A DNA stretch of 64,000 nt from Lentilactobacillus sp. SPB1-3. Its GTDB lineage: Bacteria; Bacillota; Bacilli; Lactobacillales; Lactobacillaceae. Both the position numbers and the translations under genes were made by a program. Location: positions 992,001 through 1,056,000 of the forward strand of contig NZ_CP168151.1 in NCBI RefSeq assembly GCF_026913205.2. Reading direction: 5' to 3'. Below the pieces are notes generated by a model, which ran no database searches, had not been told where the DNA came from, and was given only the letters and a program-made list of their open reading frames with translations. Shown here one piece after another: positions 3,874 through 64,000 of the stretch. Every line of letters starts with the position of its first letter. Within the stretch, counting starts at the first letter, position 1.

Positions 3874-4434
3874 ATGGCTATATCAACTGCTGATTTTAAA
3901 AACGGATTGACTATCGAAGTCGATAACGCAATCTGGAGAATTATTAGTTTCCAACACGTTAAACCAGGTAAGGGTGGCGCATTTGTTCGTTCAAAGCTAA
4001 AGAACTTAAGAACTGGTGCCGTTCAAGAAAAGACATTTAGAGCCGGTGCCAAAATGGAACAAGCTCAAATTGACACTCGTAAGATGCAATACTTGTATGC
4101 TGATGGCGATGATCACGTATTTATGGATCTTGATACTTACGATCAAATCAGCATCCCAGCTGCTCAAATCACACAAGAATTAAAATACCTACAAGAAAAC
4201 ATGGAAGTTAGTGTTATTCAATACGGTAACGAAACTCTTGGTGTTGAATTACCTAACACTGTAACTCTTGAAGTTGCTGAAACTGAACCAGGTATTAAAG
4301 GTGATACTGCATCAGGTGGATCAAAACCTGCTACAATGACAACTGGTTTAACTTTACAAGTACCATTCTTTGTTAACCAAGGCGACAAATTGGTTATTAA
4401 CACTCAAGATGGTACTTACATTTCCAGAGGCTAA
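3874..4434 (+). CDS. efp: Elongation factor P
   Basis: The 186-residue product has the three-domain EF-P layout: N-terminal KOW-like domain starting [23 protein letters not shown], the tip loop KPGKGGAF whose Lys is the usual site of post-translational modification in species that modify it, then two OB domains ending [29 protein letters not shown] rescues ribosomes stalled at polyproline stretches. AGGAGGAT precedes the ATG, and a TATAAT at 3835-3840 is the likely -10 element. The Asp23-family gene and nusB follow closely, a common Bacillota arrangement. Confidence 0.97.
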
Positions 4435-4461
4435 TTTCTGAACTGAAACGGAGGCTATACA

Positions 4462-4914
4462 ATGGCTGATGAAACTAACATTATTTTGCAAAGTGATGAT
4501 CCTGAATTAGGTAACATTCAAATTGCACCTAATGTTCTTGAAATTATTGCTGGTGTTGCAACTACTGAAGTAGACGGAGTTAACCGGATGCGCAGTTCAC
4601 TTGCCACCAGTTTAAACGAATTAATTGGTAGAAAAAAGGAACACGGTAAGGGAGTTAAGCTTTCTTACAACGCTGCTCATGAATTGGTAGTTGATATTGA
4701 CGTTTTCTTGAACTATGGGGTTTCTGTTCCCAAGGTTGCCTTGGAAATTCAAGGCCAAGTTGAACAACAATTATACTTTATGACTGGACTTAAAGTCTCA
4801 GAAGTCAACGTTCATGTTCAAGGGGTTGTTCCTGAAAAGACTGAAAGTTCAGTTGACCCTAATAATCCGTTTGCTAACGATGACACAGAAAATGGTGAAA
4901 CTAGTGGAAATTAA
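4462..4914 (+). CDS. Asp23/Gls24 family envelope stress protein (YqhY-like)
   Basis: The 150-residue product contains the Asp23 domain: GNIQIAPNVLEIIAGVATTEVDGV, a variable charged linker, GVKLSYNAAHELVVDIDVFLNYGVSVPKVALEIQGQV and a final VSEVNVHVQGVVPE, plus an acidic low-complexity tail. Location between efp and nusB identifies it as the YqhY branch, which in Bacillus subtilis has been linked to control of acetyl-CoA carboxylase and lies near acc genes; acc genes are not nearby here. GGAGG precedes the ATG. A second paralogue (YloU type) lies at 24778. Confidence 0.9.
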   Translation: MADETNIILQSDDPELGNIQIAPNVLEIIAGVATTEVDGVNRMRSSLATSLNELIGRKKEHGKGVKLSYNAAHELVVDIDVFLNYGVSVPKVALEIQGQVEQQLYFMTGLKVSEVNVHVQGVVPEKTESSVDPNNPFANDDTENGETSGN

Positions 4915-5317
4915 TCGTCACAAGATTCGTGAAATTGCGTTTCAAACGCTGTTTGCGATGAATACCAACGCTAAAACTGATGTAAATGATTTTTACGCAG
5001 TGATTACCGATGGTAAATATGGTCAGGATGTTCCTGAATATTTAACTACAGTTGTTTCTGGCGTAGTTGAACATAAAGCTGAATTAGATGCTTTAATTGA
5101 AGATAACCTAACTAGTGGTTGGTCAATTTCTAGAATTGCTAAGACTGATTTGATTATTATTGAGGTGGCATTATTCGAAATGAAGTATGTCGATGATGTT
5201 CCTGCCAAAGTAGCAATTAATGAAGCCATTGAATTAGCTAAGAAGTTCAGTGATGATCGTTCAAGAAAATTTGTTAACGGGATTTTGTCACACGCCCATG
5301 AAGAACTGGTAAAATAG
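4892..5317 (+). CDS. nusB: Transcription antitermination protein NusB
   Basis: NusB binds boxA RNA with ribosomal protein S10 and supports rRNA antitermination. The product is all-helical, with HKIREIAFQTLFAMNTN near the start and DLIIIEVALFEMKYVDDVPAKVAINEAIELAKKFSDDRSRKFVNGILSHAHEEL at the end, typical of the family. I start it at ATG 4892, giving 141 residues and overlapping the upstream gene by 23 bases; a GTG at 4904 is the alternative. Neither has a strong ribosome binding site, so translation is probably coupled to the upstream gene. Confidence 0.93.
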   Translation: MVKLVEINRHKIREIAFQTLFAMNTNAKTDVNDFYAVITDGKYGQDVPEYLTTVVSGVVEHKAELDALIEDNLTSGWSISRIAKTDLIIIEVALFEMKYVDDVPAKVAINEAIELAKKFSDDRSRKFVNGILSHAHEELVK

Positions 5318-5345
5318 ATTTACGAACTTGTAAATCTATTTTTTT
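5312..5345 (+). terminator. Terminator after nusB
   Basis: AAATAGATTTAC pairs perfectly with GTAAATCTATTT around GAACTT and is followed by T-rich sequence. The stem overlaps the nusB stop codon. Confidence 0.85.
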
Positions 5346-5376
5346 ATACATAAAATTATCTAAAGGAGTGGTTTGA

Positions 5377-6240
5377 TTGGCAACATTAATTGACGGAAAG
5401 AATTTAGCGAAACGGTTAAACGAAATGACCGCTCAGCGAGTTGAAAAGTTGCGCACTAGTCATGATATTGTCCCTGGACTAGTGGTAATCATCGTTGGTG
5501 CTGATCAAGCTAGTCAACGATACGTCCGTAATAAACATAGAACTGCACAAAAGCTGGGTATTAATTCCACAATCAAGGAATTATCAAGTGATGTGTCTCA
5601 AGAAGAATTACTAACATTGATTCGTCAATTTAATGATGATAAGACTGTTAACGGCATTCTTGTACAAGATCCGTTGCCAAATCAAATTGATGAAAAATTA
5701 GTTACTAAAACTATTGCTCCAGAAAAAGACGTTGATGGTTTTCATCCTGAAAACGTTGGTAAACTATACTTAAACGACAATTCTAATTATCCAGTTGCAT
5801 GTACGCCCAAGGGTATTATGACAATGTTTTCAGAATATAATATCGATTTGATGGGTAAAGATGTTGTGATGATTGGTCGGAGTGCAATCGTGGGTAAACC
5901 AATGGCTGCATTGATGTTGAATGCCGGAGCTAGTGTTACCATTGTCCACCGTCATTCTAAGGATGTAGCTAGTTACACTAAAAATGCCGATGTGATTGTT
6001 TCGGCCACTGGTCATTTGCACACTGTAACAGCTGACGATGTTAAGCCGGGAGCAGTAGTAATCGATGTCGGCCAAAATATGAACGAAGATGGTCACTTAG
6101 TGGGTGATGTTGATTTTGATGATGTCGAACCAAAGGCATCATTTATTACCCCAGTTCCTGGTGGCGTGGGTCCTATGACGATTGCTACTTTAATGCAACA
6201 AACTGTCGATTTGACTGAATGGAGTCTTTTGCGTGAATAA
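5377..6240 (+). CDS. folD: Methylenetetrahydrofolate dehydrogenase/cyclohydrolase FolD
   Basis: FolD interconverts 5,10-methylene-, methenyl- and 10-formyl-tetrahydrofolate using NADP, supplying one-carbon units for purines and for formyl-Met-tRNA. The 287-residue product has the catalytic YVRNKHRTAQKLGI segment (Tyr and Lys), GILVQDPLPNQI, DVDGFHPENVG, the dinucleotide-binding VMIGRSAIVGKPMAALM and the C-terminal TPVPGGVGPMTIATLM. It starts with TTG at 5377 behind AAAGGAGTGG and overlaps xseA by 8 bases, opening a long operon that runs to recN. Confidence 0.97.
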   Translation: MATLIDGKNLAKRLNEMTAQRVEKLRTSHDIVPGLVVIIVGADQASQRYVRNKHRTAQKLGINSTIKELSSDVSQEELLTLIRQFNDDKTVNGILVQDPLPNQIDEKLVTKTIAPEKDVDGFHPENVGKLYLNDNSNYPVACTPKGIMTMFSEYNIDLMGKDVVMIGRSAIVGKPMAALMLNAGASVTIVHRHSKDVASYTKNADVIVSATGHLHTVTADDVKPGAVVIDVGQNMNEDGHLVGDVDFDDVEPKASFITPVPGGVGPMTIATLMQQTVDLTEWSLLRE

Positions 6241-7594
6241 CGAGTATTTAACAGTTACAGCACTAACTCAGTATCTTAAGAAAAAGTTTGATTACGATCC
6301 GTATCTAACTAAGGTATATTTAACAGGGGAAATATCTAATTTTCGTTTACGGGCTAATGCTCATCAATACTTTAGTTTGAAGGACAACAACGCTAAAATT
6401 AGTGCAATTATGTTTAAGTCAGCTTTTAATAAGTTAAAATTCACTCCTGAAGAAGGTATGAAAGTTCTAGTAGTTGGTCATATTTCATTGTATGAACCAA
6501 CGGGAAGCTACCAAATATATATTGAACGAATGGAACCAGACGGCGTTGGCCAACTATATCAAGCGTATGAGCAATTAAAGAAACGCTTGGATGCTGAAGG
6601 CTTGTTTAGCCAACTTAAGCGACCATTAGTTAAATATCCGAAGAGAATTGCGGTCGTCACTTCACCAAGTGGTGCGGTTATTCGGGATATTATTACTACT
6701 GCCCGTCGCCGTTATCCCATTGCCCAAATAGTGTTATTCCCGGCGTTAGTTCAAGGAACTGAAGCTAGTAACGATATTGTTCGACAAATTAATCGGGTCA
6801 ATCAATATGGTGATTTTGATACTTTGATTATTGGTCGTGGTGGTGGTTCAATCGAAGATTTGTGGCCATTTAATGAAGAAAACGTTGCACGAGCTATTGC
6901 GACTAGCGATATTCCCGTGATTTCTTCAGTGGGTCACGAAACTGATACCACGATTGCGGATTTAGTGGCCGATGTTCGAGCAGCCACACCAACTGCCGCT
7001 GCTGAATTAGCGGTTCCTAAATTAGACCAAGTATTATTGGATATTAATAACAATCAAAACCGTTTGATGAATGCTGCATATCAGTTAATCAAGCAAAACC
7101 GGTTAAGATTAGTCAAACTCCAAGAAGCGGCTGTTTTCAAATCTCCTCAGAGAATTTATGAAACTTATGCGCAACGAGTTGACTTATTGACACAACAGTT
7201 AATTGCCAACAACAATCAAAATCTTAACCGAGTCCAGACTCAATATAATGAATTGAATAATCGATTGAAAATCACTGCACCAACTAATCGAATTGATCAG
7301 CTGAAACAAACAGTTGAATCTATGAATTTGCGAATGGCGCAATCAGAAACATTGCGATTATCAGAAATCAAAAAACGATACCAAATTGCGGTATCATCAT
7401 TGGATCATTTGAGTCCACTAAAAATCTTAGCTCGTGGGTATTCATTTACCACTGATAAAGATGAAAAATTGATTTCTTCTGTTGATCAAGTTCAAATGGG
7501 CGATGAACTAAACGTTCACATAAATGATGGAACATTCACAGCAGCTGTAACTAAAATTACTGAGGACAAGCGAGAGGAAAAAGATGGCAGATAG
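6233..7594 (+). CDS. xseA: Exodeoxyribonuclease VII large subunit
   Basis: With XseB this forms exonuclease VII, which degrades single-stranded DNA to oligonucleotides in both directions during repair. The 453-residue product has an N-terminal OB fold (KVYLTGEISNFRLRANAHQYFSLKD), the catalytic core with GRGGGSIEDLWPFNEE and SSVGHETDTTIADLVADVRAATPTAAAEL, and a long coiled coil from about residue 260. GTG at 6233 overlaps folD by 8 bases and the 3' end overlaps xseB by 11, indicating translational coupling. Confidence 0.97.
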   Translation: MNNEYLTVTALTQYLKKKFDYDPYLTKVYLTGEISNFRLRANAHQYFSLKDNNAKISAIMFKSAFNKLKFTPEEGMKVLVVGHISLYEPTGSYQIYIERMEPDGVGQLYQAYEQLKKRLDAEGLFSQLKRPLVKYPKRIAVVTSPSGAVIRDIITTARRRYPIAQIVLFPALVQGTEASNDIVRQINRVNQYGDFDTLIIGRGGGSIEDLWPFNEENVARAIATSDIPVISSVGHETDTTIADLVADVRAATPTAAAELAVPKLDQVLLDINNNQNRLMNAAYQLIKQNRLRLVKLQEAAVFKSPQRIYETYAQRVDLLTQQLIANNNQNLNRVQTQYNELNNRLKITAPTNRIDQLKQTVESMNLRMAQSETLRLSEIKKRYQIAVSSLDHLSPLKILARGYSFTTDKDEKLISSVDQVQMGDELNVHINDGTFTAAVTKITEDKREEKDGR

Positions 7595-51078: not shown

Positions 51079-52008
51079 ATGAGTAAAGAATTAATTTTTG
51101 GTCATTCAAATCCTGATACTGATGCGATTGTGGCCGCAAAAGCATATTCATATCTACAAAACAAGCTTGGTTACGACACTGAAGCAGTTGCTTTAGGCGA
51201 ACCAAATCCTGAAACTCAATTCGTGTTGAATTATTTTGACGAATCAACCCCTAGAGTTATCAAAGAAGCTTCTTCAGAAGTTGATGAAGTAATGTTAGTT
51301 GACCACAACGAAAATCAACAAAGTGTGAGTGACATTGATAAAGTAACTGTTACTCATGTTGTTGACCATCACCGTATCGCTAACTTCAGTACTACATTGC
51401 CTTTGTACTATCGTGCTGAACCAGTTGGATGTACCAGCACTATTTTGACTAAAATGTTTGATGAAAACAAAGTTGAAATTCCTGCTCAACTTGCTGGTTT
51501 GATGCTTTCAGCAATTATCTCAGATACTTTATTGTTGAAGTCACCAACTACTACTGATGATGACAAAATTGCTTTAAAGACTCTTGCAGAAATTGCTGAT
51601 ATCGATGTTGATAAGTATGGTATTGAAATGCTTAAGGCTGGTACTAATACCGATGCTAAGAGTGATAAAGAGTTAATCGATTCAGATGCTAAATCATTTG
51701 ATTTAGGTGGTAAGAGTGTTCGCATCGATCAAATCAACGTTGTTGATTTTGATGATATTTTAAAGCGTAAGTCAGACATTCTAAAAGCTATGTCCGATGA
51801 AGCTAGTGCTGAAAATTATGATTTATTCTTAGTATTAGTTACCAACGTGTTGAACAGTGATTCTAAGCTTATCGTGCTTGGAGAACCTAAAGATGCTGTT
51901 GAATCTGCCTTTAATGAAAAAATTAATGACGACATTATGGAACTTCCAGGAGTTGTTTCTCGTAAGAAACAAGTCGTTCCACAATTAACTGATGCAATGG
52001 TTAAGTAA
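51079..52008 (+). CDS. ppaC: Manganese-dependent inorganic pyrophosphatase (DHH family)
   Basis: It hydrolyses pyrophosphate to two phosphates, pulling biosynthetic reactions forward. The 309-residue product has the DHH-family metal motifs [24 protein letters not shown] and [10 protein letters not shown], and the DHHA2 C-terminal domain ending in [14 protein letters not shown], whose Ser-Arg-Lys-Lys segment binds substrate. GGGAG precedes ATG 51079. A terminator follows. Confidence 0.97.
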
Positions 52009-52015
52009 TTGTAAA

Positions 52016-52042
52016 GGAGACTGCTAATGGCAGTCTCTTTTA
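52016..52042 (+). terminator. Terminator after ppaC
   Basis: GAGACTGC and GCAGTCTC pair around TAATG and are followed by T4 and further T-rich sequence. Confidence 0.8.
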
Positions 52043-52063
52043 TTTACTATTCATCTACTTTCA

Positions 52064-52078
52064 TTATAATGATAATTA
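52064..52078. promoter_or_regulatory. PerR/Fur-like box upstream of msrB-msrA
   Basis: The 15-base sequence is TTATAAT, then G, then ATAATTA. It agrees with the Bacillota Fur-family (PerR) box TTATAATNATTATAA at 13 of 15 positions and covers the -35 area of a promoter whose -10 is TACAAT at 52085-52090. PerR control would make sense for peroxide-defence genes. The match is by eye. Confidence 0.5.
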
Positions 52079-52119
52079 GTTGTGTACAATTTAATCGTTT
52101 TTTGCATGGAGGTAAGATA

Positions 52120-52551
52120 ATGGATAAATCAGATTTAAAAAAGAAATTAACTGATGAACAGTATCGAGTAACTCAAGAAGCCGCTACTGAAGCTCCGTTT
52201 ACTGGCCAGTATGATGATTTCTATGAAGATGGTATATATGTTGATGTTGTATCTGGTGAGCCACTATTTTCATCCACGAATAAATACGATGCCGGCTGTG
52301 GTTGGCCATCATTTACAAAACCAATTGATAAAGATAAGATAAATAACAACATGGACTTATCTCATGGCATGATTCGTGAAGAAGTTAGAAGTAAGGAAGC
52401 CAATTCTCATTTAGGACATGTCTTTCCAGATGGTCCTAAAGATCAAGGCGGCAATCGTTTTTGCATTAATTCAGCCGCTTTGAAGTTCATTCCAGTTTCT
52501 GAATTACGCGATGCAGGCTACGAGAAGTACCTACAATTATTTACAAAATAG
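52120..52551 (+). CDS. msrB: Methionine-R-sulfoxide reductase MsrB
   Basis: I start at ATG 52120 behind GGAGGT; the in-frame ATG at 52027 lies in the ppaC terminator and would add a spurious hydrophobic leader. The 143-residue product has [58 protein letters not shown] and the catalytic Cys in RFCINSAAL. Only one CxxC-type cysteine (in AGCGWP) is visible, so it is a zinc-free MsrB. It repairs Met-R-sulfoxide, and msrA follows 27 bases later. Confidence 0.96.
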
Positions 52552-52578
52552 ACATAAATACAAAGGAGGTTGATTGAT

Positions 52579-53097
52579 TTGACTGAAACAGCAATTTTTG
52601 CCGGTGGATGTTTTTGGTGCATGGTCAAGCCTTTCGACGAAATGCCCGGAATTGAAAAAGTTGTGTCTGGCTACACAGGTGGCCACGTTGCTAACCCCAC
52701 GTATGAACAGGTTAGCAGTCACACCACTGGACACACAGAGGCAGTTAAAATTACCTTTGATCCTGAAGTTATTAGCTATAGAGATTTAGTGCAGATTTAC
52801 TGGCAACAAACTGATCCAACAGATGCGATGGGACAGTTCCAAGATCGCGGCGATAATTATCGACCAGTCATCTTTGTCAAAGATGATGAGCAAAGAAAGA
52901 TTGCCGAAGAATCTAAACAAGCGCTTCAAGAAAGCGAAATGTTTGATAAACCAATCGTTACTAAGATTGAAAAAGTTCAACCTTTCTATGATGCCGAAGA
53001 AGAACATCAAGAGTTCTATAAGAAGGATCCACTACGTTTTGAACTCGAAGAACGTGGTGGCCGTGAACAATTTAAACAGCAACATTGGAATAATTAA
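52579..53097 (+). CDS. msrA: Methionine-S-sulfoxide reductase MsrA
   Basis: I start at TTG 52579, nine bases after AAAGGAGG; TTG 52570 is too close to that site. The 172-residue product has the catalytic motif [21 protein letters not shown], then [32 protein letters not shown] and [14 protein letters not shown]. The extra Cys after the GCFWC nucleophile is present as in other lactobacilli. It reduces Met-S-sulfoxide and complements MsrB. Confidence 0.96.
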
Positions 53098-53100
53098 GCA

Positions 53101-53147
53101 AAAAACACAGATGAAGTGATCTATAAATCACTTCATCTGTGTTTTTA
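53101..53147. terminator. Bidirectional terminator between msrA and xerS
   Basis: AAAAACACAGATGAAGTGAT pairs perfectly with its complement around a short loop, with A and T runs on both sides. Confidence 0.95.
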
Positions 53148-53148
53148 T

Positions 53149-54243
53149 TTAGTCATTATTTTCATCATGTAGGTTGTCCAATGCGGCTCGTTGCTTAGTA
53201 TCAACAATATGAGTGTATAGACTAGTTGCCTTGGTCGAAGATTGACCCAATTGAGTGGCCACAAGACGTTCGTTATTAGTTTGTAAGTAAAGCTTCGAAG
53301 CTAATGTATGACGTAACTTATGAGGCGTTATACGAACACTATTAAATGCTTGAGAGTATTTACCAACTAATAGTTCCACTGTTGCTGTAGAAATTCTTCT
53401 GGGTCCCTCAGTCCCCTTTGTTAAAAAAAGGGCAGGGGTGTTTGTGGTAGCCATGTATCTTTGATTCCTGATCAATAGGTAAGGTTCTATATACTTAATA
53501 ACCCAGCTTGCAATGGGAACAGCGTCCCATTTACCACCTTTACGACGAACAGAAATGGTGTTTTTTGTTAAATTCAGGTCTTTAAAATTAGCATTGGTAA
53601 GTTCAGACACACGAATTCCAGTACCAAGTAATAAAGCATTAATGGCAACATCACGTTCTTTATCACGCTCATACATCTTTAAGATACGTTTACCAGTTAT
53701 TTGCTGTGAATACTCAGATTGAATAAAGTCTAGATAATGGACATCAGTGTCACCAAGCATTAACTTATCTTTGATATTATTGGCTCTAGTTTGATAAGTT
53801 TCACTATCTTGTACAAGATTGATTTTCTTCATCACGTTACGGTAAAAATAAGGCTCACCATCGTCGTTTTCTGATTCCACAGTTAAGTACCTAAAAAGTG
53901 CGGATAAAGCGTTTAAAGAGCGATTTACGGTACTGTGTGCCAGTGTACTTCGTTTATCAGAAGAATTTTCTTTAGATCTATTTAACAGATAGGACTTGTA
54001 CAATTCCATATCTTGTTTTTTCAAGTGCTCAAGATCGGTTAAAGAAACATCAGCAATCTTATTAGCAGAGGTGATACCAGTATCGATTAACCAATTAAAG
54101 AAGCGATTAAATTCATTCAAGTATTGGTAAAGCGTGGCTGGAGAGAGTGGAATCGTTGATTTTTCAATATAATAATCATTAACATACGCCGGTAATGAAG
54201 AAATTAATTGTTCATTGTGTTTAATATAATCATTTTTACGCAT
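53149..54243 (-). CDS. xerS: XerS-type tyrosine recombinase
   Basis: I start at ATG 54243 behind AGGAG, giving 364 residues (MRKNDYIKHNEQLISSLPAYV). The protein closely follows the streptococcal/lactococcal XerS layout: LYQYLNEFNRFFNWLIDTGI, NDDGEPYFYRNVMKKI, an insertion around 190-235, then GTGIRVSELTNANF, RRKGGKWDAVPIA, HKLRHTLASKLYL and the nucleophile Tyr in SLYTHIV. The second His of the catalytic set (normally LGH) is Gln (QLGQSS). XerS resolves chromosome dimers at dif; a dif-like site lies about 0.8 kb away. Confidence 0.85.
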   Translation of the reverse strand: MRKNDYIKHNEQLISSLPAYVNDYYIEKSTIPLSPATLYQYLNEFNRFFNWLIDTGITSANKIADVSLTDLEHLKKQDMELYKSYLLNRSKENSSDKRSTLAHSTVNRSLNALSALFRYLTVESENDDGEPYFYRNVMKKINLVQDSETYQTRANNIKDKLMLGDTDVHYLDFIQSEYSQQITGKRILKMYERDKERDVAINALLLGTGIRVSELTNANFKDLNLTKNTISVRRKGGKWDAVPIASWVIKYIEPYLLIRNQRYMATTNTPALFLTKGTEGPRRISTATVELLVGKYSQAFNSVRITPHKLRHTLASKLYLQTNNERLVATQLGQSSTKATSLYTHIVDTKQRAALDNLHDENND

Positions 54244-54331
54244 TTTAAAAACTCCTAAAAATTGAAGATTTTTGGTGGGGCTTCTTTTCTTTTTAATTAT
54301 AACTTGATAAAACTTATATTTTACTAATTTA

Positions 54332-54360
54332 ATTGTATCATACAAAATGCGTAAAACCAA
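54332..54360 (-). promoter_or_regulatory. Promoter of xerS
   Basis: On the minus strand, TTGGTT (54355-54360) and TACAAT (54332-54337) are 17 bases apart, about 90 bases upstream of the start codon. Confidence 0.65.
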
Positions 54361-55061
54361 TGTATTTACTAGGATTGATAGGCTCAGTTTTATAAGAGCT
54401 AGGACATTTTTAAACGATGTTAATTTCTGCAACTAAATGGCTTTATCTCAATATCATAATTGGTACCGCGGACTTAGGTTTCAAATATATGTCTGATCCT
54501 GGTTCGTCCGGAGCCATCTGTTCCTATAGTTTTATATAGTATTGAAGAATTGTTAATTGAGACTATCTTAAGGACATAAGTTAGCAAAGATCCTCAATTA
54601 ATACCCAAATTGCTGATTCATCGGTGCTTCATGGGAATAGCAAATCTATCTGCATTTGAGACGTTATATAAACGCGTTTTGACGACATGTTTAATCAGTA
54701 GACCATCACTTTATCCAGATAATGAATCACTTCATTAGACGATTATTTAAAACAATGTTCATTTGTGAGAATATGATATGAAGTCTAACCAAAGAATATT
54801 TACGTTAGCAAGCAACAGTTACATTTTTAAATAGTATTCAGCATATGTAGCGATCAATACAGGCCAGATCGTTAATGATTCATCAAAATGAATTTGAAAT
54901 CAAAGTCGATAATAGAATTTGGATTTAACATTTAAGCAATATTTATTAAAAGTCGATTTGTTTTGTTGATGATACTATTTAAGTCATAAAAAGTATAAGA
55001 GTAAATATTCATTCAAAACAAAGAATCCGCCTTGAACCACATTAATTTTTGCTAACTATAT

Positions 55062-55089
55062 ACTTCGTATAATATATATTATGTAAAGT
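55062..55089. other. dif: dif site (chromosome dimer resolution)
   Basis: The 28-base site has left arm ACTTCGTATAA, centre TATATA and right arm TTATGTAAAGT. It matches the Bacillus subtilis dif site, as I recall it, at 25 of 28 positions, differing at positions 6, 9 and 27. The arms are imperfect inverted repeats (8 of 11), as expected for two recombinase protomers. It lies where the coding strand changes from mainly plus to mainly minus and close to xerS. I identified it from memory of the consensus. Confidence 0.85.
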
Positions 55090-55135
55090 AGAAAATGTAA
55101 AACTAAATATATCTGTTTTCTTGCTGTCCCCTTAC

Positions 55136-55176
55136 AAAAAAATCCCTAAATCCTATTCTATAGAATTCAGAGATTA
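55136..55176 (-). terminator. Terminator of the oxidoreductase gene
   Basis: On the minus strand a long stem with several G-U pairs (AATCTCTGAATTCTAT with ATAGGATTTAGGGATT) is followed by T7. Confidence 0.75.
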
Positions 55177-55201
55177 ATTGTCTATGAAATTAATTATTCA
55201 A

Positions 55202-56152
55202 TTACATCATCACAACTGGTCGACCAGACGCTGTCCAAGCTGTAGAAATATCAGCCAAACTAAACTTATTAACGTTTAACTGCAAGTTACCTTCAGCAGC
55301 ATAAGCATATAATTTTGGTAGTTCGTTTTGTAGATACTTCATAAAGTCCTCTCCTGAGAAACTACCAATTCCAGAACCAACTATAGTTAAATCACGACCA
55401 CGAAGTAGCTGTGACGCCAAATTAATTTCGGCACCAGCCATTTGACCGATTGTCACGTAGGTCAACGGCGTAACCAATTTAATACGACTAAGTGCATTAA
55501 GAATAATTTCGGCTGGATGTCCCCATAAATAATCAACAATGACACTAAATGAAGAATTAGCATACAAATCTTTGATCTGTTTTTCAATCTCCTTATCATC
55601 ATCGGTCAATTTGATAACTTCATCAGCACCCATTTTTTTAAGTTCTGCTAACTTGGATTCACTTCTACCAGTGGCAATAACTTTACTTGCACCACGATAT
55701 TTTGCCATTTGAACGGCCATCATACCAGTAGAACCAGTTGCACCGTTAACTAAAACGACGTCGCCAGGCTTAACTTTACCACGAAGAGTTAATGCAATGT
55801 CTGATCCCATTAACACATTGGGCATTGCCGCGGCGAGTGCTGGATCTAAGTTGTCAGGTATTGGAACTAACTGGTTCTTATTCACAATTGCCTTTTCTGC
55901 CATCATTCCAGACAATCCCATAGCAAATACTAGTTTACCGTCATCTGTTCTGACCACACCATCCATACCCATAACTGCAGGCAAAGGATCAAAATTGGTG
56001 TAATGCTTACCAGCTGCCTTACCAATATCCAATCTCTTGATCGATGACGCCACTGGAGTAACAATAATTTGATCCTCGTTGTGAGTTGTAGGATCTTCAA
56101 TATCTTGATATACAGGAACTTGCCCATATTCATTTAATACTGCTGCCTTCAC
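55202..56152 (-). CDS. MDR-family NADPH:quinone oxidoreductase-like protein
   Basis: I start at GTG 56152 behind GGGGTG, giving 316 residues (MKAAVLNEYGQVPVYQDIE); an ATG at 56194 lacks a ribosome binding site. The family order is an N-terminal GroES-like domain (DIGKAAGKHY, LPAVMGMDGVV), then a Rossmann domain with GDVVLVNGATGSTGMMAVQMAKYRGA and VIATGRSESKLAELKKMGADEVI. Zinc-ligand cysteines of classical alcohol dehydrogenases are absent, so it is a quinone-oxidoreductase-type reductase, probably NADPH-dependent. Substrate unknown; it stands alone on the minus strand. Confidence 0.85.
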   Translation of the reverse strand: MKAAVLNEYGQVPVYQDIEDPTTHNEDQIIVTPVASSIKRLDIGKAAGKHYTNFDPLPAVMGMDGVVRTDDGKLVFAMGLSGMMAEKAIVNKNQLVPIPDNLDPALAAAMPNVLMGSDIALTLRGKVKPGDVVLVNGATGSTGMMAVQMAKYRGASKVIATGRSESKLAELKKMGADEVIKLTDDDKEIEKQIKDLYANSSFSVIVDYLWGHPAEIILNALSRIKLVTPLTYVTIGQMAGAEINLASQLLRGRDLTIVGSGIGSFSGEDFMKYLQNELPKLYAYAAEGNLQLNVNKFSLADISTAWTASGRPVVMM

Positions 56153-60363: not shown

Positions 60364-60397
60364 AAAAATCCGTGATTATTTAAATCACGGATTTTTT
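60364..60397. terminator. Bidirectional terminator between rqcH and carB
   Basis: AAAATCCGTGATT and AATCACGGATTTT form a perfect stem around ATTTA, with A and T runs on both sides. Confidence 0.95.
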
Positions 60398-60400
60398 TAT

Positions 60401-62917
60401 TTAGTCTAGTTGATAATTTTCAAAATTTTGGTAACTTATCTTCGCACCGATTTCCTGAGCAATCGTGCCATCAGTCAAACTAGACTGCAGAGCTTCGAAT
60501 GGAAAAACTGCATTCAAATATGCAAATCGCTTATGCGTAAATGAACGTAATTCTTCTTCAATTAATACAGTACTATCTATGTTGAGGTACTTCTTAACTA
60601 ACAATGAGATCCAATCAATTCCAGTGACTTTACTTAAAAATGTTGTTTCAGTTATAGTCATTGGCCGAATTCCGATACACTCAAACTCATCATCATGCTT
60701 GTTATAAAGCACCTGAACTAATCCTTGCCAATCGTTAGGATTGATTTCATTGATGGCTAGATTAACCAGTCTAGAAGCATCTTGCTTCCAATTAGTCATC
60801 GGAATCTGTATTTGTGTTAGAAATTTCAATTTATTCTTACCCTGAGGATTAGAAAAACTAACAGTCGTGATTGGAATGACATTTTCCCCATCAATAAAGA
60901 AATCCACCGCGTTAGAAACTGTTCTTTCATTGAATTCAGAAGTCTTTTGATCAGGTGGTAAGATAACTACATTTAAATCATCGAATTTTTTCAATTGGTT
61001 AGATAAGAAATGTCGGTTACCTGGAAGAAAAATAACATCAGGATGTTCTAGGTTCACGATACTTAAAATATTACCAAGTTGAATTGGTTCGATGTACTGT
61101 TTATCACTAATGCTTGGAGCCAAAGAGACCGCATTAGGATTGGTATTCATGATAATTGTTTTGTAACCAGTCTTCCTGAGCTGTATCAATATTTGCGCAG
61201 TATAGTAATCAGCACCTGTGTTAGGCCCAAGTTGGTTGCCGCCTCGGCCAATAACCAAGGCGACTTTACTGTTCTCAAATGGATGACTCTCGTTCTCGTT
61301 TTCATAACTTGAATAAAATACATTCGTATTGTTGATCAGCTCACCGCCAGTGGGTTCGATGCCCTTAAAGGTGATCTTATGACTGACATTGCTATTCATT
61401 CTGATGATAGTCGAGATGCTGACTTGCCATAGTTCCGCCAGCATTCCATCACCAAATCCATATCGATGTCCGACTTCAATTGAATGCTCAGATAAAGGAT
61501 GGTCAATAACATAATCCTGCGCTTTGAGGAGTTGATTCAACTTATAAAAATAGAATTTATCTACTTTTGTTAGCTCAGATAACTCATCAATTGAAAATCC
61601 TCTTCGTAAAGCTTCCATAAGAATTAGCATCCGACTCGCCAACGGATGAATCAATTGGTTGATCAGTTCATCATCGTTCACCTTAGAAACACTTGGTAAA
61701 ATATCTCTGGGAGATAATTGAGAACTATGCAGAGCCTTAATGATAGCCTCTTCAACAGTTCTACCAACTCCAATTGTCGAACCAACTGATTTCATAATGG
61801 TATTAAGGTGCTGATCAACATCTTCAATGTCTTCAAACGGCCATATTGGAACTCTAACCACGATATGATCGGTGGTTGGTTCCATAATACCCATAAACTT
61901 ATTGTAACGACTAGGGAGCTTAATTTCGGTCAATGAATAACCCAGTTCAAGAAATGTGGCTACATACGACAGAGGATAACCAGTTGCCTTAGCTGCTAGA
62001 GCAGTATTTCTGGTGAAGTAAGGACTAACTTTAGTAACAAAGTGACTGTTTTCCATTCTGTGTTGAGCAAACTGCACGTGACAAGTGCCTGTAATACCTA
62101 GAGCATCCATAATTCGAAACGTTGCAGTTCGTAAACGTTGATACTCTTCGTTTAATAACGTTTGAGTAGGAGCAAATATAATCGAATCACCAGAGTGAAT
62201 TCCGATGGGATCCATATCTTCCAATCCAGATACTAAAACTTTGTTTCCTTGTGCGTCACGAATACCAACCATTTCGATTTCTTTGTATCCCACAATACTT
62301 TGCTCAATAGAGCAGCGTTTAATATAAGTTCTCTTAAAACTCACCTCAAGCGCTTCTTCTAGTTCCTCTGTATTATTACAAATGAACCGACTTGTATCGT
62401 GGTTAGGAGAAATCGGCTTAACGATGACTGGGAAATCAACTTTGCGAACAAAATCGATGGCTTCGTCTTCATTGGCAACAATCACAGATTCAATTGTTCG
62501 TTCATTGATTTGAGTTAATGTCCGTTTTAATTCGACGTTTTCTACGACCTTAGACAAGTTGGTATCTCGGACCCCGACCAAAGAAACATTATTTTCAGCC
62601 AAAACACCACTTTCAGATAACTGCCAAGCGATTTGCATCGCTTTTAGGCCACCATTGGTGGGCATGATTGCATCTGGATGTTCCCGCTCAATAATATTTA
62701 CCACGTTGGTGAAATTAACTTCTAGTACGAATACGTCAGCTGCCTGAATCTCTTCAGCCATGACTGAAAACGGATTGTTATCGATCAGTAAAATTTTGGC
62801 ACCTGTTTTACGCAATGCCGATAGTCGTTCTAGTCCAGACGCATCAAATTCATTTTCGATGCCAACATTGGTTGGTCCACTGCCGATAATCAAAACTTTT
62901 TTAATATCTAGAGGCAT
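60401..62917 (-). CDS. carB: Short, degenerate carbamoyl-phosphate synthase large chain-like protein
   Basis: The 838-residue product aligns with CarB (normally about 1060 residues) from its N-terminus (VLIIGSGPTNVGIENEFDASG) through the oligomerisation region to a second half with SISDKQYIEP, TTFLSKVTGI and VFPFEALQS. Key features are altered. In ATP-grasp 1 the glycine-rich loop is PISPNHDTS, and the metal-ligand motif EVNPR is KVSPY (296-300). ATP-grasp 2 lacks roughly 85 residues including its nucleotide loop, with its ligand motif read as GIRPM. The C-terminal MGS regulatory domain is missing. It overlaps carA by 17 bases. Catalysis as a standard synthetase is unlikely. Confidence 0.8.
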   Translation of the reverse strand: MPLDIKKVLIIGSGPTNVGIENEFDASGLERLSALRKTGAKILLIDNNPFSVMAEEIQAADVFVLEVNFTNVVNIIEREHPDAIMPTNGGLKAMQIAWQLSESGVLAENNVSLVGVRDTNLSKVVENVELKRTLTQINERTIESVIVANEDEAIDFVRKVDFPVIVKPISPNHDTSRFICNNTEELEEALEVSFKRTYIKRCSIEQSIVGYKEIEMVGIRDAQGNKVLVSGLEDMDPIGIHSGDSIIFAPTQTLLNEEYQRLRTATFRIMDALGITGTCHVQFAQHRMENSHFVTKVSPYFTRNTALAAKATGYPLSYVATFLELGYSLTEIKLPSRYNKFMGIMEPTTDHIVVRVPIWPFEDIEDVDQHLNTIMKSVGSTIGVGRTVEEAIIKALHSSQLSPRDILPSVSKVNDDELINQLIHPLASRMLILMEALRRGFSIDELSELTKVDKFYFYKLNQLLKAQDYVIDHPLSEHSIEVGHRYGFGDGMLAELWQVSISTIIRMNSNVSHKITFKGIEPTGGELINNTNVFYSSYENENESHPFENSKVALVIGRGGNQLGPNTGADYYTAQILIQLRKTGYKTIIMNTNPNAVSLAPSISDKQYIEPIQLGNILSIVNLEHPDVIFLPGNRHFLSNQLKKFDDLNVVILPPDQKTSEFNERTVSNAVDFFIDGENVIPITTVSFSNPQGKNKLKFLTQIQIPMTNWKQDASRLVNLAINEINPNDWQGLVQVLYNKHDDEFECIGIRPMTITETTFLSKVTGIDWISLLVKKYLNIDSTVLIEEELRSFTHKRFAYLNAVFPFEALQSSLTDGTIAQEIGAKISYQNFENYQLD

Positions 62918-63992
62918 TGTTTTCCCTTCTTCTGGCCATGATTTCTATAAAGTCATCGAATAAGTCAACACTATCTTTAGGTCCTGGCGCTCCATCAGGT
63001 GAAAATTGAACTGAAAACGCAGGATAATCTCGATGTCTTAATCCTTGAACCGTGCCATTAATTAAATCAATGTGCGTAATATAGAGGTTGTCATGATCGA
63101 TGGATTGCGAATCGACAACATATCCTTGTTCTTGACCTGAATAAAAAATTTCATTAGTAATAATTTCTCTAATTGGATGGTTACTACCGTGATGCTCAAT
63201 CGGTAACTTTTCGACATTAGCACCATTCGCCATGGCAAAGAGTTCATGACCCAAACCAATCGCAAACATAGGAACAGTTTGTTGAACTTCACGAATCATA
63301 TCCAAAACAGAATCCGGTAAACTAGCAGGATTACCAGGCCCAGTGGATAAAACAACTCCGTCTGGATCTAGGTCTAGAATTCGCTCACTTGAAAAATCTG
63401 CTGGAACAACCGTAATGTTACAATTTCTCTTCGATAATTCTCGAAGAATACCACTTTTCAATCCAAAGTCGACAACGATGACATTGTCACCATCACCAGG
63501 ATTTGCATATGGTCTGGCGGTAGCAACTTGAGATACCTGTTGATTAGTTAAGACGGTTGCATGTAACTGATCAAAAGCATGTTCGTCATCAACGTCGACA
63601 ATACTGGCCTTCATATTTCCAAACCTATGTAGATGATGAACTAATTCACGGGTATCAATATCATAGAGGCCCGGAATCTTATGCAATTTTAAATAACGAT
63701 CAAGCGAAATACGCTTGAATTGATCTGTTGTTAAGTTTTCATATTCCCGTACTATCACACCTTTAGCAGTTGGTAATACGGATTCATATGCGTTTTGAGC
63801 CAAACCAGTATTTCCAATCGACGGCTGGGTAAATACAATAATTTGGTTATGATAAATTTGATTAGAAATTATTTCCTGGTAGCCATTCATCGTTGAATTA
63901 ACAACAATTTCACCGGTCGTTGTAGAAGCCGCACCGAATGCTTTGCCACGGTATGACGTGCCATCTTCAAGAATCAAATATCTATCTGCCAT
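62901..63992 (-). CDS. carA: Carbamoyl-phosphate synthase small chain-like protein lacking the amidotransferase triad
   Basis: The 363-residue product keeps the full CarA layout: N-terminal domain (LILEDGTSYRGKAFGA, TTGEIVVNSTMNGYQEI) and a class I GATase domain (IVVDFGLKSGILREL, LSTGPGNPASLPD). The nucleophile elbow reads AIGLGHEL, with Gly246 in place of Cys; the catalytic His and Glu of FHPEA are Ser331 and Asp333 (FSPDGA); QNHGY is QEQGY. Glutamine hydrolysis is therefore not expected. The start ATG is 8 bases from the window edge. The 3' end overlaps carB, so both are translated from one message. Confidence 0.85.
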   Translation of the reverse strand: MADRYLILEDGTSYRGKAFGAASTTTGEIVVNSTMNGYQEIISNQIYHNQIIVFTQPSIGNTGLAQNAYESVLPTAKGVIVREYENLTTDQFKRISLDRYLKLHKIPGLYDIDTRELVHHLHRFGNMKASIVDVDDEHAFDQLHATVLTNQQVSQVATARPYANPGDGDNVIVVDFGLKSGILRELSKRNCNITVVPADFSSERILDLDPDGVVLSTGPGNPASLPDSVLDMIREVQQTVPMFAIGLGHELFAMANGANVEKLPIEHHGSNHPIREIITNEIFYSGQEQGYVVDSQSIDHDNLYITHIDLINGTVQGLRHRDYPAFSVQFSPDGAPGPKDSVDLFDDFIEIMARRRENNASRY

Positions 63993-64000
63993 ACCACACC

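Follow-up and report, generated by a model that had tools for sequence, protein, structure and literature searches.

The window, a stretch of 64,000 nucleotides from Lentilactobacillus sp. SPB1-3, carries at its far end two overlapping genes related to the small and large subunits of carbamoyl-phosphate synthetase (CPS), which we call pseudo-carA and pseudo-carB. Both were found on the minus strand at the positions given for them in an earlier note on this DNA. The features of the locus are as follows, with replaced residues in E. coli numbering:

62901..63992, minus strand: pseudo-CarA (PyrAA-like), 363 aa, a predicted dead class-I amidotransferase (profile match and alignment)
63255..63257, minus strand: Gly codon replacing the nucleophile Cys269 (alignment)
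63000..63002, minus strand: Ser codon replacing the catalytic His353 (alignment)
62901..62917, minus strand: 17-nt overlap of pseudo-carA and pseudo-carB, giving translational coupling (coordinates)
60401..62917, minus strand: pseudo-CarB (PyrAB-like), 838 aa, shortened (profile match and alignment)
61925..62533, minus strand: first ATP-grasp domain (residues 129-331), Mg/triphosphate end altered, Glu215, Gly241, His243 and Gln285 retained (domain match and alignment)
62030..62032, minus strand: Lys codon (residue 296) replacing the Mg-binding Glu299 (alignment)
61427..61657, minus strand: oligomerisation domain (residues 421-497; domain match)
61004..61267, minus strand: second pre-ATP-grasp domain (about residues 551-638; boundaries approximate)
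60578..60724, minus strand: second ATP-grasp remnant (about residues 732-780; read from the alignment, boundaries approximate)
60364..60396, no strand assigned: bidirectional terminator-like hairpin of 14 pairs, 4 of them G-C, between pseudo-carB and rqcH (hairpin search; 2364-2396 of locus L005)

Sequence comparison indicates that both proteins are true homologues of the CPS subunits across the domains they share with CPS II enzymes. In profile searches, pseudo-CarA scored 358 bits against TIGR01368 (cut-off 307) and pseudo-CarB 552 bits against TIGR01369, below the cut-off of 1027. The pair resembles E. coli CarA/CarB (PDB 1bxr, 1c30) in its two subunits, its gene order and, as far as the second pre-ATP-grasp domain, its arrangement of domains. 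It differs in lacking the MGS domain and the bulk of the second ATP-grasp domain, along with the nucleophile, the catalytic His and Mg/ATP residues. The view in the earlier note that both subunits are changed at catalytic residues was borne out by the alignments, and the coupling is kept through the overlap; the two proteins may plausibly still assemble into a complex. Automatic annotation is liable to label such a pair carA/carB and, since the small subunit scores over a curated CPS cut-off, an auxotroph may be wrongly credited in metabolic models with making carbamoyl phosphate.

Five residues of interest are changed in the alignment of window CarA: Cys269 to Gly, Ser47 to Ile, Gln273 to Glu, His353 to Ser and Glu355 to Asp. 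The Cys-His-Glu triad of a CPS II amidotransferase is therefore absent (C269G, H353S, E355D), with Asp at position 355 also found in 26 of 30 canonical rows, and the alignment indicates that the nucleophile, the catalytic His and the glutamine pocket are all lost. We found Gly at residue 269 in all 41 distinct pair loci, which had been picked by CarB score, blind to this residue, compared to Cys in 30/30 canonical rows; the count is 43/43 with L115 and L125, both added after the residue had been seen. One further sequence at the same locus, L116, retains Cys269 and was classed as an intermediate. Among 98 invariant CarA sites (defined on 36 canonical rows, including a few duplicates), the least kept were C269 (0%) and H353 (2%; retained in 1 of 43 pair rows), followed by S47, tied with T119 at 5%, against a mean of 67%. 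The Cys269 change is thus not chance decay in one genome. Moreover, because S47, C269, Q273 and H353 are among the least-kept invariant sites, the suggestion that the pair senses glutamine appears unlikely.

The large subunit is changed at both synthetase sites. At the first, window CarB has Asn for Arg129, Lys for Arg169, His/Asp for Gly175/176, Lys for Glu299, Ser for Asn301 and Tyr for Arg303 (alignment), so that the Mg/ATP residues of a CPS II first ATP-grasp domain (R129, R169, the G loop, E299, N301) are missing. Glu299 is Lys or Arg in 29/29 main-clade CarB rows, and Asn301 survives in 3 of the 32 short rows. The second ATP-grasp domain, which phosphorylates carbamate in CPS II, lacks its middle, and the whole MGS allosteric domain, which is present in seven full-length relatives, is absent; in the short rows R675, R715 and D753 fall in gaps (31-32 of 32), and E841 and N843 are changed. 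A structure predicted with AlphaFold2 for window CarB with one relative had a mean pLDDT of 29.9 and was set aside.

These changes bear on whether the pair might be an active, altered enzyme, either an ammonia-dependent ATP-grasp ligase or a maker of carbamate or carboxyphosphate using the first ATP-grasp domain only, a reading we consider improbable. Glu215, Gly241, His243 and Gln285, all present in the window protein, are retained in 25-31 of the 32 short rows, and in full-length L071 every first-site residue checked is retained, both of which favour such an enzyme. However, with Glu299 replaced by Lys or Arg throughout the main clade and the second ATP-grasp domain without its middle, the new ammonia-using ligase proposed in the earlier note is disfavoured, and the loss of Asn301 and of the Gly loop, with a gutted second site, also counts against activity.

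Genomic content bears on the same question. We found no genuine CarA or CarB over cut-off elsewhere in the host genome (G000), where the earlier note had raised the possibility of a second CPS, and no aspartate carbamoyltransferase (ATCase) over cut-off, so that no consumption of carbamoyl phosphate for pyrimidines is expected there. The one carbamoyltransferase match inspected in this genome lies, by reading, within an agmatine-type operon, and in G002, G046 and G049 nothing of the ATCase/OTC family matched at E up to 0.001. It had been argued that carbamoyl phosphate made with no other source would show the pair to be active; no other synthetase was found here, but neither was an ATCase over cut-off. 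Seven other pair-bearing genomes (G050, G057, G063, G071, G078, G091, G098) do have an ATCase over cut-off and no CarB over cut-off, which favours an active enzyme, and we allow that the more distant pairs in these genomes may be active. But the same gap occurs in seven genomes that have no pair (G065, G072, G073, G082, G085, G092, G099), and thus another source of carbamoyl phosphate is likely.

The missing synthetase also weighs against a role as dominant-negative or allosteric subunit of a genuine CPS encoded elsewhere, which we regard as very improbable. Many relatives do encode both the pair and a genuine CPS. Nevertheless, the host lacks genuine CarA and CarB, so the pair cannot regulate a genuine synthetase there as the earlier note had suggested; seven relatives (G002, G007, G015, G020, G037, G046, G056) likewise have the pair and no CarB over cut-off; and in genus g15, with two candidates scored per genome, every one of the 24 genomes has the short form, and a second CarB match is missing from 18. 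CPS regulation as a general function of the pair is contradicted.

Of 397 Lactobacillaceae genomes, 227, spread over 21 of 40 genera, have the short CarB-like form (counted by hand, with a gap between 5.9e-251 and 1.5e-219), and the other 170 lack it; among G000-G060, no such pair was found in G034, G035, G047, G051, G052 or G053. We considered whether these are decaying pseudogenes, or slow junk left after replacement of the pyrimidine CPS, since the loss of residues and domains is graded across lineages. Against this, there is no internal stop in the short-form genes among the matches listed, and dN/dS is low where dS is finite: 0.009, 0.012, 0.029 and 0.067 for pseudo-CarA and 0.024 and 0.071 for pseudo-CarB, compared to 0.036 for rqcH and 0.022 for fhs between L039 and L040. 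Most pairs are saturated, and the finite dS values behind the CarA and CarB ratios quoted (1.2-3.0) are near saturation. Within the genus, conservation of CarA exceeds that of rluD, lspA and fhs. The pair is not a pseudogene, and the prospect that sister strains would hold plain pseudogenes is contradicted for Lactobacillaceae, leaving this reading scarcely credible. Conserved by selection and without catalytic residues, the pair fits a pseudoenzyme whose inactivity is predicted from sequence.

Directly upstream of the pair, just past the window end, lies pyrR itself, where PyrR control upstream of position 64000 had been a point to check. PyrR is an RNA-binding pyrimidine regulator. The gene accompanies the pair in the fetched stretch in 36 of 41 distinct loci, at 14-28 nt upstream in the 10 distinct Lentilactobacillus loci, and its product appears intact, with the PRPP loop retained in 37/38 rows. 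In two sister genera (L118, L119) a full pyr operon lies between the same flanks, and of it pyrR, carA and carB persist in the window genome. Thus, the pair occupies the original chromosomal place of an ancestral pyr operon. The host genome has one PyrR over cut-off, at the pair locus, and two of its permease genes, one uracil-permease-like and one NCS1-permease-like, are preceded by PyrR leaders. In G049 a leader precedes pyrP and the pair; among the matches listed, leaders (RF00515) beside the pair scored over gathering in G049, G063, G071, G078, G091 and G098 and under it in G036 and G044, and none was found in L005, L006, L038 or L046 in a lax search (E up to 1).

We give about even chances that the pseudoenzyme pair has been retained to sense a ligand or to regulate, as a partner of PyrR. 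In this proposal, the pair would be a relic of the ancestral pyrimidine CPS at its original place, its glutaminase and synthetase chemistry gone, which selection would keep as a non-catalytic complex; this complex would bind a small ligand, most likely a nucleotide or bicarbonate, and would act on PyrR or PyrR targets. Since the pair has lost its catalytic residues and is nonetheless kept intact in many lactic acid bacteria, usually beside PyrR, even after the real enzyme has been lost, it probably senses or regulates and makes nothing.

A pseudoenzyme complex with a role unrelated to PyrR, for example serving as a scaffold or assisting some other amidotransferase or ATP-grasp enzyme, is a somewhat unlikely rival. 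The adjacency to pyrR could simply be inherited, as gene order handed down from the ancestral operon; pyrR is missing from the fetched stretch in 5/41 loci, and G039 (assembly 87% complete) has the pair but no PyrR over cut-off. What speaks for a PyrR partner instead is that the same three operon genes stay together across many genera, with pyrP or pyrB interposed in a few, and that a second lineage, family f4 (Streptococcus-like by reading), also has pyrR and a similar pair. Furthermore, in G032 a PyrR with an internal stop coincides with the longest CarA branch in the tree, although this is one case only.

Full-length relatives indicate that the pair decayed stepwise. The second ATP site is gone in all of them and the first in all but one, and all keep the MGS domain: in seven such forms (five of them dead and two intermediate), 111/133 invariant MGS cells are conserved (83%), compared to 13/77 (17%) for active cells of the second site and 394/728 (54%) for other invariant cells of that domain. 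In E. coli, the MGS domain binds UMP. Its retention in the full-length forms is a hint of a sensor, but as the short form in the window lacks the domain, the argument for UMP is limited to those forms. The family f4 pair branches next to a canonical CarA of its own genus in the tree. A single origin of all pseudo forms is disfavoured, given that the CarA tree needs four changes, three of them forced by starred branches, but one common clade still passes an AU test (p 0.133); because of that test, we call repeated conversion likely and claim no more. For the Lactobacillaceae forms only, a single clade gave p 0.032, with long branches in play.

A search of titles and abstract openings found no description of such a pair. 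In mammalian CPS I, the amidotransferase Cys is replaced. This ammonia-dependent enzyme (PDB 5dot) is a structural-database relative; it joins a dead glutaminase to two working synthetase sites, whereas the pair has lost synthetase residues too. According to the accessible part of one article, CPS I retains two phosphorylation sites and an N-acetylglutamate switch (PMC6022934), but neither phosphorylation site is intact in window CarB. The same part of that article describes the inactive dihydroorotase of Pseudomonas-type ATCase, a dead pyrimidine-enzyme paralogue retained as a subunit (PMC6022934), which is a different enzyme, and its partner ATCase was not found over cut-off in the window genome. 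If the PyrR proposal is right, a two-subunit enzyme of central metabolism would have become a widely conserved non-catalytic complex, a clear case of enzyme turned regulator with intermediates alive in sister genera.

It is tempting to link the pair to PyrR2 of Lactiplantibacillus plantarum, a second PyrR whose control of pyr genes responds to inorganic carbon (accessible part of PMC3582564) and which corresponds to lp_1782 (accessible part of PMC7911632). More speculatively, and on balance doubtful, the converted CPS might do the sensing in PyrR2-type regulation of lactic acid bacteria, no longer making carbamoyl phosphate but reading one of its old ligands (bicarbonate through the first site, or in full-length forms UMP/PRPP through the MGS domain) and signalling to PyrR, the conversion having occurred separately in Lactobacillaceae and in the Streptococcus-like family. 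Such an arm would account for the PyrR2-dependent inorganic carbon response, and the pair makes testable how PyrR2 of lactobacilli responds to CO2.

The earlier note also placed the pair 5-9 kb from dif, which is supported only in part. Two dif patterns turned up no convincing site in our search, but the GC skew does change sign at about 52-56 kb.

Both proteins of the pair are clearly relatives of carbamoyl-phosphate synthetase (CPS), as judged from sequence, and their genes overlap by 17 nt:

60401-63992, minus strand: the CarA-like and CarB-like genes, which together fill this interval
L005 (the fetched stretch of this locus) 6014-6547: pyrR, separated from the pair by a gap of 21 nt

The CarA-like protein (363 aa) passed the curated CPS cut-off despite its lost catalytic residues, and the CarB-like protein (838 aa) scored about half of its curated family cut-off. 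E. coli CPS is the closest solved structure by sequence for both subunits. In alignments to it (E. coli numbering throughout), we found C269G, S47I, Q273E, H353S and E355D in CarA, and R129N, R169K, E299K, N301S and R303Y as well as loss of the glycine loop in CarB, with E215, G241, H243 and Q285 retained. Past its second pre-ATP-grasp domain, this CarB retains no more than a vestige of the second ATP-grasp and lacks the MGS domain (the short form), and the operon ends in a bidirectional terminator-like hairpin. These alignments bear out the observation in the earlier note that both subunits are altered at catalytic residues, although its interpretation of the pair is only partly supported. 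From the residues, we infer that catalysis is lost in both subunits.

That the homologs might be plain pseudogenes in sister strains is contradicted by their occurrence and their low dN/dS. We searched a short-CarB profile built from 22 rows across 397 Lactobacillaceae genomes, scoring two candidates per genome, and found a short-type class (best E ≤ 5.9e-251; next class 1.5e-219 or weaker) in 227 genomes and 21 of 40 genera, counted by hand for all genomes and per genus. The short form is absent from the other 170, some of which have full-length or other pseudo forms and some canonical CarB only; two of the 397 had no match at all to the profile. In the window's genus, every one of the 24 genomes carries it. 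For genus g15 the count is also 24 of 24, and 18 of these gave no second CarB match, with two candidates scored per genome. Within the genus, pseudo-CarA is 75-98% identical to that of the window, exceeding RluD, LspA and Fhs at each locus, and pseudo-CarB is 59-93% identical. Values of dN/dS were finite for few comparisons, with dS > 1 for CarA and CarB in every case quoted: between loci L039 and L040, 0.009 for CarA and 0.024 for CarB (PyrR, 0.015; fhs, 0.022; rqcH, 0.036); for CarA also 0.012 (L005-L006), 0.029 (L042-L068) and 0.067 (L057-L062); and for CarB 0.071 (L038-L039). The members of the pair are not pseudogenes.

We examined which residues have been lost. We took the 98 CarA positions that do not vary across 36 canonical rows (including a few duplicates). 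In 43 pseudo rows, retention was lowest for C269 (0%) and H353 (2%), then S47 and T119 (5% each), compared to a mean of 67%. Cys269 is Gly in all 41 loci selected by CarB score, and Glu299 is Lys or Arg in 29 of 29 main-clade CarB rows. In short CarB rows, retention of the first site as a whole is no poorer than that of the domain's other invariant residues (43% vs 45%); E215, G241, H243 and Q285 are largely conserved, whereas the glycine loop, E299, N301 and R303 are largely lost. In the full-length set (n = 7; L069-L073, L115 and L116), the first site is kept in 47 of 84 cells (56%) vs 58% for the domain's other invariant residues, and the second site in 13 of 77 (17%) vs 394 of 728 (54%). 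Invariant MGS positions are the best kept of all domains in this set (111/133; 83%). In these proteins K954, T974, T977, K993 and N1015, the UMP-binding positions in E. coli CPS, are also largely conserved. A UMP role cannot be carried over directly to the window pair, because its CarB lacks the MGS domain.

The locus itself points to the origin of the pair. In G034 and G035 (loci L118 and L119), the same flanks as at the pair locus, fhs-lspA-rluD-pyrR on one side and rqcH on the other, bracket a pyr operon holding pyrP, pyrB, carA with intact Cys and carB with intact sites; an unlabelled ORF between pyrB and carA reads as pyrC. At L116 (G055), CarA still has Cys269 but not His353, and both Mg sites of CarB are gone; at L115 (G033), Gly replaces Cys269, and CarB is close to canonical apart from Ala in place of Glu299 and Glu841. 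Thus, the shared flanks and graded intermediates indicate that the pair is the old pyrimidine CPS at its old position, changed stepwise from forms like L116 and L115 through full-length L069-L073 to the short forms. Among L069-L073, L071 keeps its first site: at 3903-7067 of this locus (G043), every checked first-site residue is intact and the second site is destroyed, and this CarB may retain carbamate synthesis or ATP hydrolysis.

Conversion is likely, though not proven, to have taken place more than once. In the CarA tree, a trio from another family (f4), Streptococcus-like by our reading, adjoins a canonical CarA from the same genus (100/99). Of 98 genomes drawn from this genus, six encode a CarB-like frame of 582-584 aa and lack a CarB over cut-off. 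At the three loci that were read, the order is pyrR, a single additional gene (pyrB at two of the loci), altered carA, altered carB. AU tests for a single clade gave P = 0.133 for all pseudo rows and P = 0.032 for Lactobacillaceae rows. In the same tree, the CPS beside pyrB at L122 (3411-9053; G004:C90) groups with that of L117, a cluster that reads as arginine-type (100/100), and its CarB differs at MGS residues. The L122 CPS is the working one of a pyrimidine-making Lentilactobacillus, where it seems to have taken the place of the ancestral pyrimidine CPS. A PyrR leader lies immediately upstream of pyrB in several genomes of the window's genus.

We looked for a genuine carAB elsewhere, as the earlier note had suggested, and found no second CarA, no second CarB and no aspartate carbamoyltransferase (ATCase) over cut-off in the host genome (one contig, 1.93 Mb, 99.89% complete; close to Lentilactobacillus kosonis, with 93% CarB identity over 838 residues). 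Two carbamoyltransferase-family matches scored lower; the one examined adjoins an antiporter-like and an agmatine-deiminase-like gene and reads as a putrescine carbamoyltransferase. By ORF reading, an agmatine-deiminase-like operon (carbamoyltransferase, antiporter-like gene and deiminase) lies in this genome at L110 1714-5001 (G000:C1, about 252.7-256 kb). A pyrE-type gene passed its cut-off, as did a single PyrR, whose gene immediately precedes the pair. The PyrR leader RNA (RF00515) occurs twice (54.9 bits, over the gathering score, and 50.5 bits, under it), upstream of genes read as uracil-permease-like and NCS1-permease-like. Thus, with no CPS or ATCase found, a PyrR, and leaders at permease-like genes, the host looks like a pyrimidine salvager that retains PyrR.

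The proposal that the pair regulates a genuine synthetase does not fit these genomes, since the host and G002, G007, G015, G020, G037, G046 and G056 all have the pair and no genuine CPS over cut-off. In the latter seven, neither a CPS nor an ATCase for it to serve or regulate was over cut-off, and G002, G046 and G049 keep the pair without any ATCase/OTC-family match. PyrR is the pair's stable associate, because pyrR lies within the fetched stretch at 36 of 41 loci (not in the stretch at 5); in G039 (87% complete), no PyrR was over cut-off. Of 38 PyrR rows, 37 retain the PRPP loop and 9 differ in the basic patch, presumably RNA-binding, most of them at one or two positions. In G032, where an internal stop interrupts PyrR, the CarA of the pair has the longest branch in the tree. 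Given the lost chemistry, strong conservation, lack of a CPS or ATCase to serve and stable PyrR association, we propose that the pair forms a non-catalytic complex that would bind a small ligand and may contact and modulate PyrR.

PyrR2 of L. plantarum, lp_1782 (PMC7911632), reportedly controls the pyr operon according to inorganic carbon (PMC3582564), and a second title on this subject is among the references of PMC5712122. Since bicarbonate is a CPS substrate, a converted CPS adjoining a PyrR of this type would be suggestive, if lp_1782 has such a pair as its neighbour. No description of a conserved dead CPS pair was apparent in a mostly open-access literature search. Pseudoenzymes derived from biosynthetic enzymes are a known kind, to which the pair belongs; it is unusually wide in distribution and has living intermediates.

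Several findings count against the proposal: the 5 loci and the G039 genome in which PyrR was not seen, the missing MGS domain of the window form, and the intact first site of L071. So do seven pair-bearing genomes (G050, G057, G063, G071, G078, G091 and G098) that have ATCase over cut-off without CarB over cut-off, each with at least one further carbamoyltransferase-family match. The same gap occurs in seven pair-less control genomes (G065, G072, G073, G082, G085, G092 and G099). Together, these make a catabolic source of carbamoyl phosphate plausible.

The pair had been placed 5-9 kb from dif. No dif site was identified with the patterns used, but GC skew does change sign at 52001-56000 of the window. 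A recombinase-like ORF (by reading; 53149-54432, minus strand) adjoins this switch, and the two would fit a replication terminus. Related species have a THF riboswitch over the gathering score on the downstream side of the locus (L006 13775-13873; L038 11662-11761).
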